Positions 13,878-14,348 of a stretch of DNA of 20,161 nt are shown one piece after another. Numbering within the stretch: the first letter of the stretch is position 1; each line of letters begins with the position of its first letter. The translations under genes and the position numbers were made by a program. A model generated the notes under the pieces. The model was not told the origin of the DNA and made no database searches. It saw only the letters and a program-made list of their open reading frames with translations. Source of the DNA: Candidatus Vogelbacteria bacterium CG22_combo_CG10-13_8_21_14_all_37_9 (GTDB taxonomy: Bacteria; Patescibacteriota; Minisyncoccia; Phycocordibacterales; XYD1-FULL-46-19); contig PCSX01000030.1 of the NCBI GenBank assembly GCA_002772495.1, forward strand, positions 1 through 20,161. The letters are read 5' to 3'.

Positions 13878-13883
13878 TATAAT
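13878..13883 (+). promoter_or_regulatory. Candidate -10 of the tRNA-Gln fragment/GIY-YIG transcript
   Basis: TATAAT at 13878-13883 lies 10 bases before the tRNA-Gln 5' copy. This is probably the original tRNA promoter, now driving the fragment and the nuclease gene. No clear -35 is seen. Confidence 0.55.
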
Positions 13884-13893
13884 AGACAAACAT

Positions 13894-13914
13894 TGCGGGA
13901 TCATCTAATGGTAG
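13894..13914 (+). repeat. Truncated copy of the tRNA-Gln 5' end (nt 1-21)
   Basis: These 21 bases are identical to positions 14271-14291 of the intact tRNA-Gln. They cover the acceptor 5' strand and most of the D arm, and break off after GGTAG. The rest of the tRNA is absent, and a GC-rich palindrome follows two bases later. Together with the intact gene it brackets a 377-bp segment that holds the GIY-YIG gene. Confidence 0.9.
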
Positions 13915-13915
13915 T

Positions 13916-13947
13916 CGCCTTATCGGCGACCCGCCGATAAGGCGGGG
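13916..13947 (+). repeat. GC-rich palindrome at the tRNA-fragment junction
   Basis: CGCCTTATCGGC (13916-13927) and GCCGATAAGGCG (13933-13944) are perfect 12-bp inverted repeats with a GACCC loop. An alternative fold is CCCGCC-GATAA-GGCGGG (13930-13946). GC-rich inverted repeats of the same type sit at the fragment junctions of both tRNA-Thr genes. Confidence 0.85.
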
Positions 13948-13956
13948 ATAAAAAAT

Positions 13957-14214
13957 ATGTATTATTTATATATTTTAGAAAGTAAAAAAAATAAAAGACG
14001 CTACGTTGGATCCACTAGTAATTTAAAACGTAGATTACTAGAACATAATAATGGACAAGGTGGTAAATATACTCACGACAATCGTCCATTTGTATTAATT
14101 TATTATGAAGCTTATATTAATAAATTAGATGCAATACAAGCTGAGAAATTTTACAAAACAGGTTACGGTCGAGAAATTCTAGCTGGTAAATTAAGTCATT
14201 TTTTGTTAGCTTGA
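13957..14214 (+). CDS. Small GIY-YIG nuclease-domain protein
   Basis: An 85-residue stand-alone GIY-YIG domain. The signature appears as YYLYILES (2-9) and YVGSTSNLKRRLLEHN (16-31), with the conserved Arg in LKRRL and a Glu in AEKFYKT (63-69). Such proteins resemble the catalytic part of UvrC and of homing endonucleases; the small ones are of uncertain role. The gene lies between a partial and an intact copy of tRNA-Gln, directly behind a GC palindrome. A hand count gives about 27% GC, lower than neighbours such as the YqeY gene, and it uses AGA arginine codons that neighbours rarely use. This hints at transfer. GGGG at 13944-13947 is the only weak ribosome-binding candidate. Confidence 0.88.
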   Translation: MYYLYILESKKNKRRYVGSTSNLKRRLLEHNNGQGGKYTHDNRPFVLIYYEAYINKLDAIQAEKFYKTGYGREILAGKLSHFLLA

Positions 14215-14234
14215 GTTTGTAATATTTTAAACAT

Positions 14235-14265
14235 TCCGCCTAGATTTTCTAAAAAACCTAAGCGG
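14235..14265 (+). terminator. Hairpin between the GIY-YIG gene and tRNA-Gln
   Basis: TCCGC (14235-14239) with TAG, and CTA with GCGGA (14261-14265), form an imperfect stem around an AT-rich loop. It may end the nuclease transcript or form the right end of the inserted segment; there is no good T tract after it. Confidence 0.35.
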
Positions 14266-14270
14266 ATAAT

Positions 14271-14341
14271 TGCGGGATCATCTAATGGTAGGATAGCAGA
14301 CTCTGAATCTGTTCATCTTGGTTCGAATCCAAGTCCCGCAG
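14271..14341 (+). tRNA. tRNA-Gln (anticodon CTG)
   Basis: The acceptor TGCGGGA pairs with TCCCGCA (14334-14340). The anticodon stem GCAGA/TCTGT encloses CTCTGAA, giving anticodon CTG for CAG codons. The T arm is CTTGG-TTCGAAT-CCAAG. The discriminator is G14341 and the next bases are CCG, so CCA is not encoded, unlike in the two tRNA-Thr genes. The gene is intact although a partial copy lies upstream. Confidence 0.95.
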
Positions 14342-14348
14342 CCGATTT

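Follow-up and report, generated by a model that had tools for sequence, protein, structure and literature searches.

The tRNA-Gln locus and its nuclease

Why does an intact tRNA-Gln gene stand just behind a broken copy of its own 5' end, with a palindrome and a small nuclease gene between the two? We analysed this locus in the window, the whole 20,161-nucleotide stretch of a Candidatus Vogelbacteria contig, where it comprises the following features.

13878..13883, + strand: TATAAT, possible -10 element of the native tRNA-Gln promoter, 10 nt 5' of the broken copy
13892..13914, + strand: broken 5' copy of tRNA-Gln, covering tRNA nt 1-21 and 2 bases of the leader; identical to 14269-14291 over all 23 bp
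13915..13946, no strand: GC-rich palindrome forming a double hairpin, which either terminates the broken copy or lies within it
13947..13950, + strand: GATA, weak candidate (4 bases) for resumption of the broken tRNA copy (tRNA nt 22-25)
13957..14214, + strand: GIY-YIG nuclease gene, 85 aa (PF01541, E 7e-19)
14215..14270, + strand: 56-nt spacer between the nuclease stop and the intact tRNA (covered by the promoter scan)
14271..14343, + strand: intact tRNA-Gln(CTG) (ARAGORN; Rfam RF00005)

An earlier note on this DNA had reported that the first 21 bases of the tRNA-Gln gene occur twice, and the repeat proved exact: they recur at 13894-13914, offset by 377 bp, and the match reaches 23 bp with the 2 leader bases. 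By arithmetic, an exact 23-bp repeat within ~1 kb is far below chance expectation, and the broken 5' copy scored 21.0 in alignment, above the 99.9% level (16.7) of 1,468 cross-isotype comparisons. The segment between the copies does hold the palindrome and the 85-residue GIY-YIG gene that had been described; this gene is the only ORF of at least 60 aa within the 377 bp, and no integrase gene was found in the insert. The palindrome consists of two overlapping hairpins immediately 3' of the first tRNA-Gln copy. Its 13-base core, GGCGACCCGCCGA, was found once in the 494,502-base assembly with up to one mismatch allowed, and a multi-copy repeat of the host's own genome was thus rejected. The GATA that follows may be resumed tRNA sequence, its 4 bases being too short for certainty; longer resumptions past the palindrome occur in relatives (e.g., L059, L074 and L095). 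Downstream of the intact tRNA, no tRNA-Gln 3' remnant was found in the window (score 6.0). What is visible in the window is only the 5' half, the palindrome, the nuclease and the intact tRNA-Gln, and the case for this locus is made by the 5' half together with the family pattern described below. The 5' part of the intact tRNA-Gln, or the whole of it, would belong to the insert. Our reading is that the segment probably represents a self-rescuing, homing-type tRNA-gene element of very small size.

If the segment were instead an intron or intervening sequence, the tRNA would be made by splicing it out. Nuclease-gene insertions are known in rRNA genes of these bacteria (PMC11270868, in the part available), and two GIY-YIG genes of our set lie inside a 16S rRNA gene (L023 and L028). 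However, the complete tRNA downstream means that splicing is not needed, no Rfam intron family (including the group I and group II cores) matched the window at the gathering threshold, and broken halves are mostly disrupted by palindromes; we regard splicing as extremely improbable.

The window nuclease has both the GIY-YIG domain and the marks of the UPF0213/Slx1 branch. Its motif residues Y5, Y16, R26 and E63 (Tyr, Tyr, Arg, Glu) are invariant across 18 sequences, the window protein included, and the same alignment contains no invariant Asn; the lack of a conserved C-terminal Asn is the criterion given for this branch (PMC1564403, in the portion available). Among solved structures the nuclease is nearest to UPF0213/Slx1, ahead of I-TevI. 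The nearest chains are 1zg2, 1ywl and SLX1, and a profile search gave E-values of 5e-14 for 1zg2, 1e-6 for SLX1 and 5e-3 for I-TevI. Foldseek returned the same order (1zg2, SLX1, I-TevI) with only 1zg2 passing E 0.001, and the model of the window nuclease has a pLDDT of 89.6. Nine sequence pairs were tried for dN/dS, of which four gave no dS, two had a dS of at least 2 and two were usable; the values from these two close pairs (0.13 and 0.17) suggest purifying selection. Homologues of the window protein are present in at least 50 of the 61 genomes searched, its own genome counted, and no relative was found in viral contigs. The host's own assembly has seven PF01541 matches. On contig C22 of that genome, two tandem GIY-YIG genes (L002 and L005) are followed directly by the contig end, and by eye each has a tRNA-Asn-like 5' fragment on its 5' side.

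Recurrence of the layout at other RNA genes

GIY-YIG loci were fetched from relatives, from the order and from named genomes (named relatives include Tagabacteria, Moranbacteria and Nomurabacteria), yielding 171 distinct genes, which are part of those listed; L, G and g numbers are our labels for loci, genomes and genera. Loci were picked by protein similarity, about one per genome from the searches plus 60 further listed places, and the distance to a tRNA was measured from the end of the HMM match rather than from the stop codon. Among the 164 distinct GIY-YIG genes with at least 230 nt of downstream sequence, 46 were followed within 150 nt by the start of a same-strand tRNA (42) or tmRNA (4) and 1 by such a gene on the opposite strand, a 46:1 strand bias downstream of the nuclease match (p = 7e-13). 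The tRNAs behind GIY-YIG genes are of the types Ser, Leu, Gln, Asn, Thr, Val, Ile, Met, Tyr, Ala, Lys and Cys.

We aligned the 5' end of each tRNA to the sequence upstream of its nuclease in a palindrome-tolerant manner, with the four tmRNA loci excluded from the counts. Of the 42 loci, 32 had a 5' fragment whose score exceeded 95% of the cross-isotype comparisons, and in 22 it exceeded 99% of them. The layout that the earlier note had proposed searching for (GIY-YIG genes beside truncated tRNA 5' ends) does recur across loci. Ten loci fell under the 95% line (L004, L009, L042, L047, L076, L105, L106, L111, L113 and L253); by eye, L042, L105, L111 and L113 look similar to the others, and some of the rest have no visible fragment. 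Across 30 loci the usual order is tRNA nt 1 to nt 8-36, a palindrome, tRNA again to about nt 17-42 and the nuclease ATG, which often lies only a few bases past the broken half. At L059, for example, nt 1-23 of tRNA-Leu, a palindrome, nt 24-40 and one base precede the ATG, and L074 runs from nt 1-15 through a palindrome and nt 16-31 directly into it. The point at which the broken half stops varies among loci, from the D arm as far as the anticodon loop; the D arm, where the earlier note had placed the point of entry, is one end of this range.

A palindrome, mostly of 19-50 bp, is seen by eye in or at the broken half in about 25 of 30 loci, and hairpins with perfect arms of at least 8 bp occur in 15 of 42 upstream regions versus 3 of 41 and 3 of 38 elsewhere. 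One palindrome type is multi-copy in other hosts (e.g., 12 copies in G030). In a set of 20 further copies, which left out copies already known beside GIY-YIG genes, 2 (L288 and L293) lie within tRNA remnants and 18 have no remnant by eye; no GIY-YIG gene was found near these 20 copies in the 1.2-1.6 kb stretches examined. The palindromes could themselves be the primary mobile DNA, with a structure-specific, Slx1-like nuclease mobilising hairpins into tRNA genes and spare tRNAs being selected. The abundance of hairpins at broken halves fits this proposal, as do the nearest solved relatives of the nuclease (UPF0213 and SLX1) and the existence of GIY-YIG genes of other clades between inverted repeats. 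We nevertheless hold it to be distinctly unlikely, given that the 20 further copies have no GIY-YIG gene in the stretches examined and only 2 have a tRNA remnant, that the core of the window palindrome is single copy, and that the clade-by-isotype pattern of the nucleases (see below) points to sequence recognition. The dead half raises the cost of forming the cloverleaf (median 5.8 versus 1.7 kcal/mol without it, 18 transcripts). An insulator role, in which the palindrome keeps the dead half from misfolding the tRNA, was rejected, since removing the palindrome made 4 of the 18 worse and 9 better and left 5 unchanged.

A 5' fragment above the 99% line was found at 29 of 44 tRNAs with a GIY-YIG gene directly upstream versus 3 of 51 without (Fisher p = 2e-10), and a 3' fragment at 16 of 41 versus 5 of 51 (Fisher p = 1e-3). 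The 51 controls, fetched by tRNA or flank similarity and with no GIY-YIG gene near, are mainly tRNA-Ile and tRNA-Gln, whereas the GIY-YIG set is mainly Ser and Leu. Other tRNAs with no GIY-YIG gene near also exceeded chance (8 of 41 for the 5' and 12 of 40 for the 3' fragment), many of them coming from loci fetched via palindromes or element matches. Duplicated 5' ends without a GIY-YIG gene, mostly interrupted by a palindrome, are present at L122, L165, L206, L209, L215 and L263 (tRNA-Lys); 11 such GIY-less loci had been chosen for looking affected, and the control of 51 was used for rates instead. The earlier note would have counted against itself either such nuclease-free duplications or a lack of empty sites; the former exist, and so do empty sites. 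We tentatively read the GIY-less layouts as remnants or non-autonomous forms. At L164 and L165, one tRNA-Gln lies inside another between short arms, with no nuclease gene between; the arms at L164 form a 15-bp inverted repeat resembling the CCCGT type by eye.

A duplication might also have come first, in which case a tandem tRNA copy died and gathered palindromes, and GIY-YIG genes later settled there as in a safe haven, driving nothing. The GIY-less loci with a dead half beside an intact tRNA are what this origin would leave, and one palindrome type is indeed dispersed in many copies that mostly lack a tRNA remnant. It seems unlikely to us all the same: nuclease lineages tend to be specific for a tRNA type, the strand bias is 46:1, the start codon often lies a few bases past the broken half, L086 and L269 have different acceptor stems in their intact and broken tRNAs, and at L122 the tRNA on the inside appears foreign.

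Empty sites, native leaders and carried tRNAs

Filled and empty alleles, as expected of homing, are best seen at the tRNA-Ile(tat) site of genus g100, which is filled in G358 and G373. Among the matches listed, the flanks that lie 329-353 nt apart in the G358 query are 7-87 nt apart in G407, G302, G101, G424, G419, G403 and G422; this spacing was read from match coordinates, and G387, G439, G448 and G449 have longer gaps. In G373, the leader of the broken half shares 38 of 45 bases with the native G302 leader when counted along the alignment, whereas the leader of the intact copy is unlike it (best score 12.5 versus 33); the leader evidence from G358 is weak. A second, weaker case is tRNA-Leu in genus g53, filled in G054 and empty in G210, with an insert of 302 bp and identical tRNAs. 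Here the broken half had a leader score of 23 and the intact copy one of 6; leader and tRNA make the pairing, as no match to the upstream flank of G054 was found in G210. These comparisons place the native leader with the broken half. Since, in addition, the intact tRNA begins 15-65 nt past the nuclease match end in 26 of 30 loci, it is probably co-transcribed with the nuclease.

For the window, the original tRNA promoter had been assigned to the first copy. TATAAT does stand 10 bases before this copy, but the promoter scan did not list it among its sites and there is no good -35; the assignment draws on relatives, mainly the G373/G302 pair. The same scan found no same-strand promoter-like site in the 14215-14270 spacer. 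Empty sites were likewise found in relatives, but none lacking exactly 377 bp was found for the window, where the comparison is one of gene-level synteny. The nearest syntenic site, in G008, has gpsA (50% identical), another ORF, tRNA-Gln (95% identical) and a gene that we take, by eye, to be ftsX-like, in the same order as the window. It has no GIY-YIG gene and is too diverged for base-by-base alignment.

A copy of the tRNA 3' end lies downstream of the intact tRNA in 15 of the 42 GIY-YIG loci, and both halves exceed their thresholds in 11; the other 27, the window among them, fail for the 3' fragment. Because the 3' half is also found downstream, the inserted thing often appears to bring a complete replacement tRNA rather than a 5' end. 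The layout proposed in the earlier note (a 5' stub, a GIY-YIG gene and an intact tRNA) is retained, with the carried part often enlarged to a whole tRNA and with a mirror type added. At L088, the downstream 3' copy matches in 45 of 45 bases. The acceptor stem at L086 pairs in 7 of 7 positions when the two broken halves are combined and in 5 of 7 when they are combined with the intact tRNA, and at L269 the halves TGCGAGA/TCTCGCA pair while the intact tRNA has TGGGAGA/TCTCCCA (L269 was read by eye, as the computed alignment had misplaced its 5' half). At L122, which has no GIY-YIG gene, a tRNA-Ile lacking its initial bases is interrupted close to the anticodon by another tRNA-Ile, which is complete and differs from it. 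When stubs and carried copies were compared with native tRNAs, the stub was closer in 22 of 26 comparisons over nt 1-17 and in 18 of 26 over nt 1-23 at L120, and in 16 of 26 at L122 (9 opposite, 1 tie); such a divergence is not seen at L201 or in the window, where stub and carried part have the same sequence.

The mirror type (L112, L178, L188 and L199) has the nuclease between an intact tRNA, immediately before it, and a 3' fragment behind it; L112 has 31 bp of tRNA-Val, and the other three come from a Bacteroidetes MAG, Acidobacteriia and Saccharibacteria, respectively. A same-strand tRNA closely precedes the nuclease at 8 loci; the four of the mirror type are among them, and the other 4 (L047, L061, L080 and L090) have no 3' fragment. 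Inverted repeats flanking the carried tRNA are striking at L269, L088, L009, L258 (tRNA-Cys) and L288, but they are not general (median 5.0 in 43 GIY-YIG loci versus 6.0 in 51 controls). The genus-mates G013 (L065) and G015 (L062) have identical broken tRNA-Ser halves, but the variable arm, the anticodon stem and the D loop are not the same in their intact tRNA-Ser genes; G013 also has, farther on, a 3' half that contains a palindrome. Downstream of the tRNAs at L201, L206, L215, L217, L158 and L159 lies, by eye, what may be the tRNA 3' end in inverted orientation, in some cases with a palindrome breaking it.

Target specificity, proposed movement and known systems

In a tree of 54 RNA-associated nucleases, tRNA isotype changes 16 times versus a shuffled mean of 31.1 (0 of 200 shuffles as low), so related nucleases tend, by sequence, to share a tRNA type. 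Eleven of 12 Leu nucleases form one clade (support 98/99) spanning nine host families, and the sister of the window protein is the nuclease of L009 (97/95), both being at tRNA-Gln. No clustering was seen for the five Gln rows taken together (76 of 500 shuffles reached as low a value) or for the two Gly rows. With the nuclease of L059 (tRNA-Leu) as query, 10 of the 12 next-best matches precede tRNA-Leu (caa, gag, taa); two matches were previously known, which makes 8 of 10 among the new ones. The cut after 12 was set by us, and no Leu is found among the later matches shown. With L015 (tRNA-Ser gct) as query, 5 of 29 other loci precede tRNA-Ser, and most of the others are of the type without an RNA gene. 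An earlier tree of 94 proteins, which compared RNA downstream (29) with RNA upstream (6) and has no bearing on RNA-associated versus other genes, gave 4 changes (26 of 500 shuffles as low). Single sites, in turn, are occupied by different nucleases: the Ser-tga site holds the distinct lineages L037, L062/L065 and L101, the Ser-gga site holds L086/L088 and L099, and the sisters L099 and L101 are at different sites (Ser-gga and Ser-tga). Target-specific lineages at one site in different hosts are what homing would produce, and are found here, with the Gln and Gly groups not clustering by themselves.

Gene neighbours are conserved within isoacceptors, and the association of clade with isotype could therefore partly reflect vertical descent. 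In its full form, this alternative holds that a few ancient inserts were inherited at conserved tRNA loci with widespread loss. The flanking genes shared by many loci of the same isoacceptor agree with it. We consider it very unlikely, as different nuclease lineages occupy one orthologous site and sisters occupy different ones, a single Leu clade spans caa, gag and taa genes, and occupancy is patchy, with a GIY-YIG gene in 2 of 30 fetched tRNA-Ile loci of genus g100 (60 genomes searched, among the matches listed).

Across the family, then, the 5' half of a broken tRNA gene, usually with a palindrome in it, comes first, and a GIY-YIG gene and an intact, same-strand tRNA of identical isotype come after it; about one locus in three has the 3' half farther on. 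The gene is uninterrupted in relatives, and related nucleases tend toward one tRNA type in different host families of the order. For the family, this sequence pattern gives good support to an insertion that enters tRNA genes and replaces the broken gene. That the nuclease drives the movement we infer from the type of enzyme, the empty sites and the target-specific clades. In the homing-type element that we propose, the nuclease would cut the uninterrupted tRNA gene of a recipient in its middle, and repair from an element-bearing copy would insert the nuclease gene together with a replacement tRNA (a new 5' part or a whole tRNA). Transcription would start at the stranded native promoter and run through the nuclease gene into the replacement tRNA, which RNase P would release; this supply would keep the host alive. 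Several points count against a homing reading. The nuclease consists of one domain and has no obvious DNA-binding module, and a repair function is predicted for prokaryotic Slx1-like proteins (PMC1564403, in the portion available). The identical 5' ends in the window do not explain how the resident tRNA escapes the nuclease, and the same layout exists without a GIY-YIG gene (the 3 of 51 with a 5' fragment in the tRNA-chosen sample).

The closest analogues, by layout, appear to be the mORFs of fungal mitochondria and the seg genes of phage T4. In the former (Allomyces atp6; Glomus atp6, atp9, cox2 and nad3), an endonuclease ORF enters an essential gene with a replacement gene part and leaves a native stub, which resembles relatives while the carried part has diverged (PMC3630166, in the text available). 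In that text, mORFs replace the 3' ends of mitochondrial protein genes and encode LAGLIDADG or, at atp9, GIY-YIG enzymes, whereas the element described here occupies bacterial tRNA genes, leaves mostly 5' stubs, often carries a whole tRNA and has an Slx1-type GIY-YIG gene and a palindrome. The T4 seg genes, notably segB beside tRNA genes, are likewise free-standing GIY-YIG genes between genes; they home, and the tRNA region is preferentially inherited (PMC2988022, in the part available). SegB, however, lies in an intergenic tRNA region of a phage, and the available part of that source describes neither a broken target copy nor a carried replacement gene. Insertion sequences in CPR rRNA genes occur in the same broad host group and some carry GIY-YIG genes, which the authors placed outside spread by homing (PMC11270868, in the part available); the GIY-YIG clades here, in contrast, tend to track their tRNA targets. 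UPF0213 and prokaryotic Slx1-like proteins, minimal single-domain GIY-YIG enzymes, share sequence and fold with the window nuclease, and the available portion of their description predicts them to be repair enzymes rather than parts of mobile elements (PMC1564403). In titles and abstract beginnings of the open-licence literature, we found no description of the tRNA layout.

Tyrosine-integrase elements also insert into tRNA genes, which are restored by element sequence, usually at the 3' part. The likeness is a tRNA gene restored by an insert; here, there is no integrase, the insert is ~0.3-0.4 kb, and the stub is usually the 5' half.

A layout that recurs with so many tRNA types looks like a little-known kind of small selfish DNA. 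More tentatively, and with more doubt than confidence, we suggest an undescribed class of autonomous mobile elements of ~0.3-0.4 kb in Patescibacteria and some other bacteria, in which an Slx1-type GIY-YIG gene and a spare tRNA would break and replace the same tRNA gene in new hosts, the palindrome in the dead half would be a working part (an immunity mark or a nuclease substrate), and spread through many tRNA types would swap tRNA genes between species. If the proposal is true, it would give a role to small GIY-YIG genes that are frequent in this bacterial order, extend the driving of mobile elements to an Slx1-type branch, provide a very small autonomous nuclease element and open a way for foreign copies to take the place of essential tRNA genes. 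The idea can be tested directly, because a separate cutting site is predicted for every clade that is specific to one tRNA.

GIY-YIG genes were also found in other settings. One nuclease clade lies upstream of tmRNA at five loci (L032, L069, L071, L072 and L073), where alignment gave no 5' fragment and the tmRNA start called by ARAGORN may be off; the gene preceding the nuclease at L072 is presumably smpB, recognised by eye. The two GIY-YIG genes within 16S rRNA genes (L023 and L028) lie, by eye, near the 5' end in a stem extension, ACACCTC...GAGGTGT, in two host families. Another group (L104, L109, L110, L117 and L119) was seen by eye between inverted repeats, mostly near the stop or start codons of neighbouring genes, and is possibly a sister type of element; the repeats are CCCGTTAGAG...CTCTAACGGG, and in L104 CCCGTACGAAGT...ACTTCGTACGGG.
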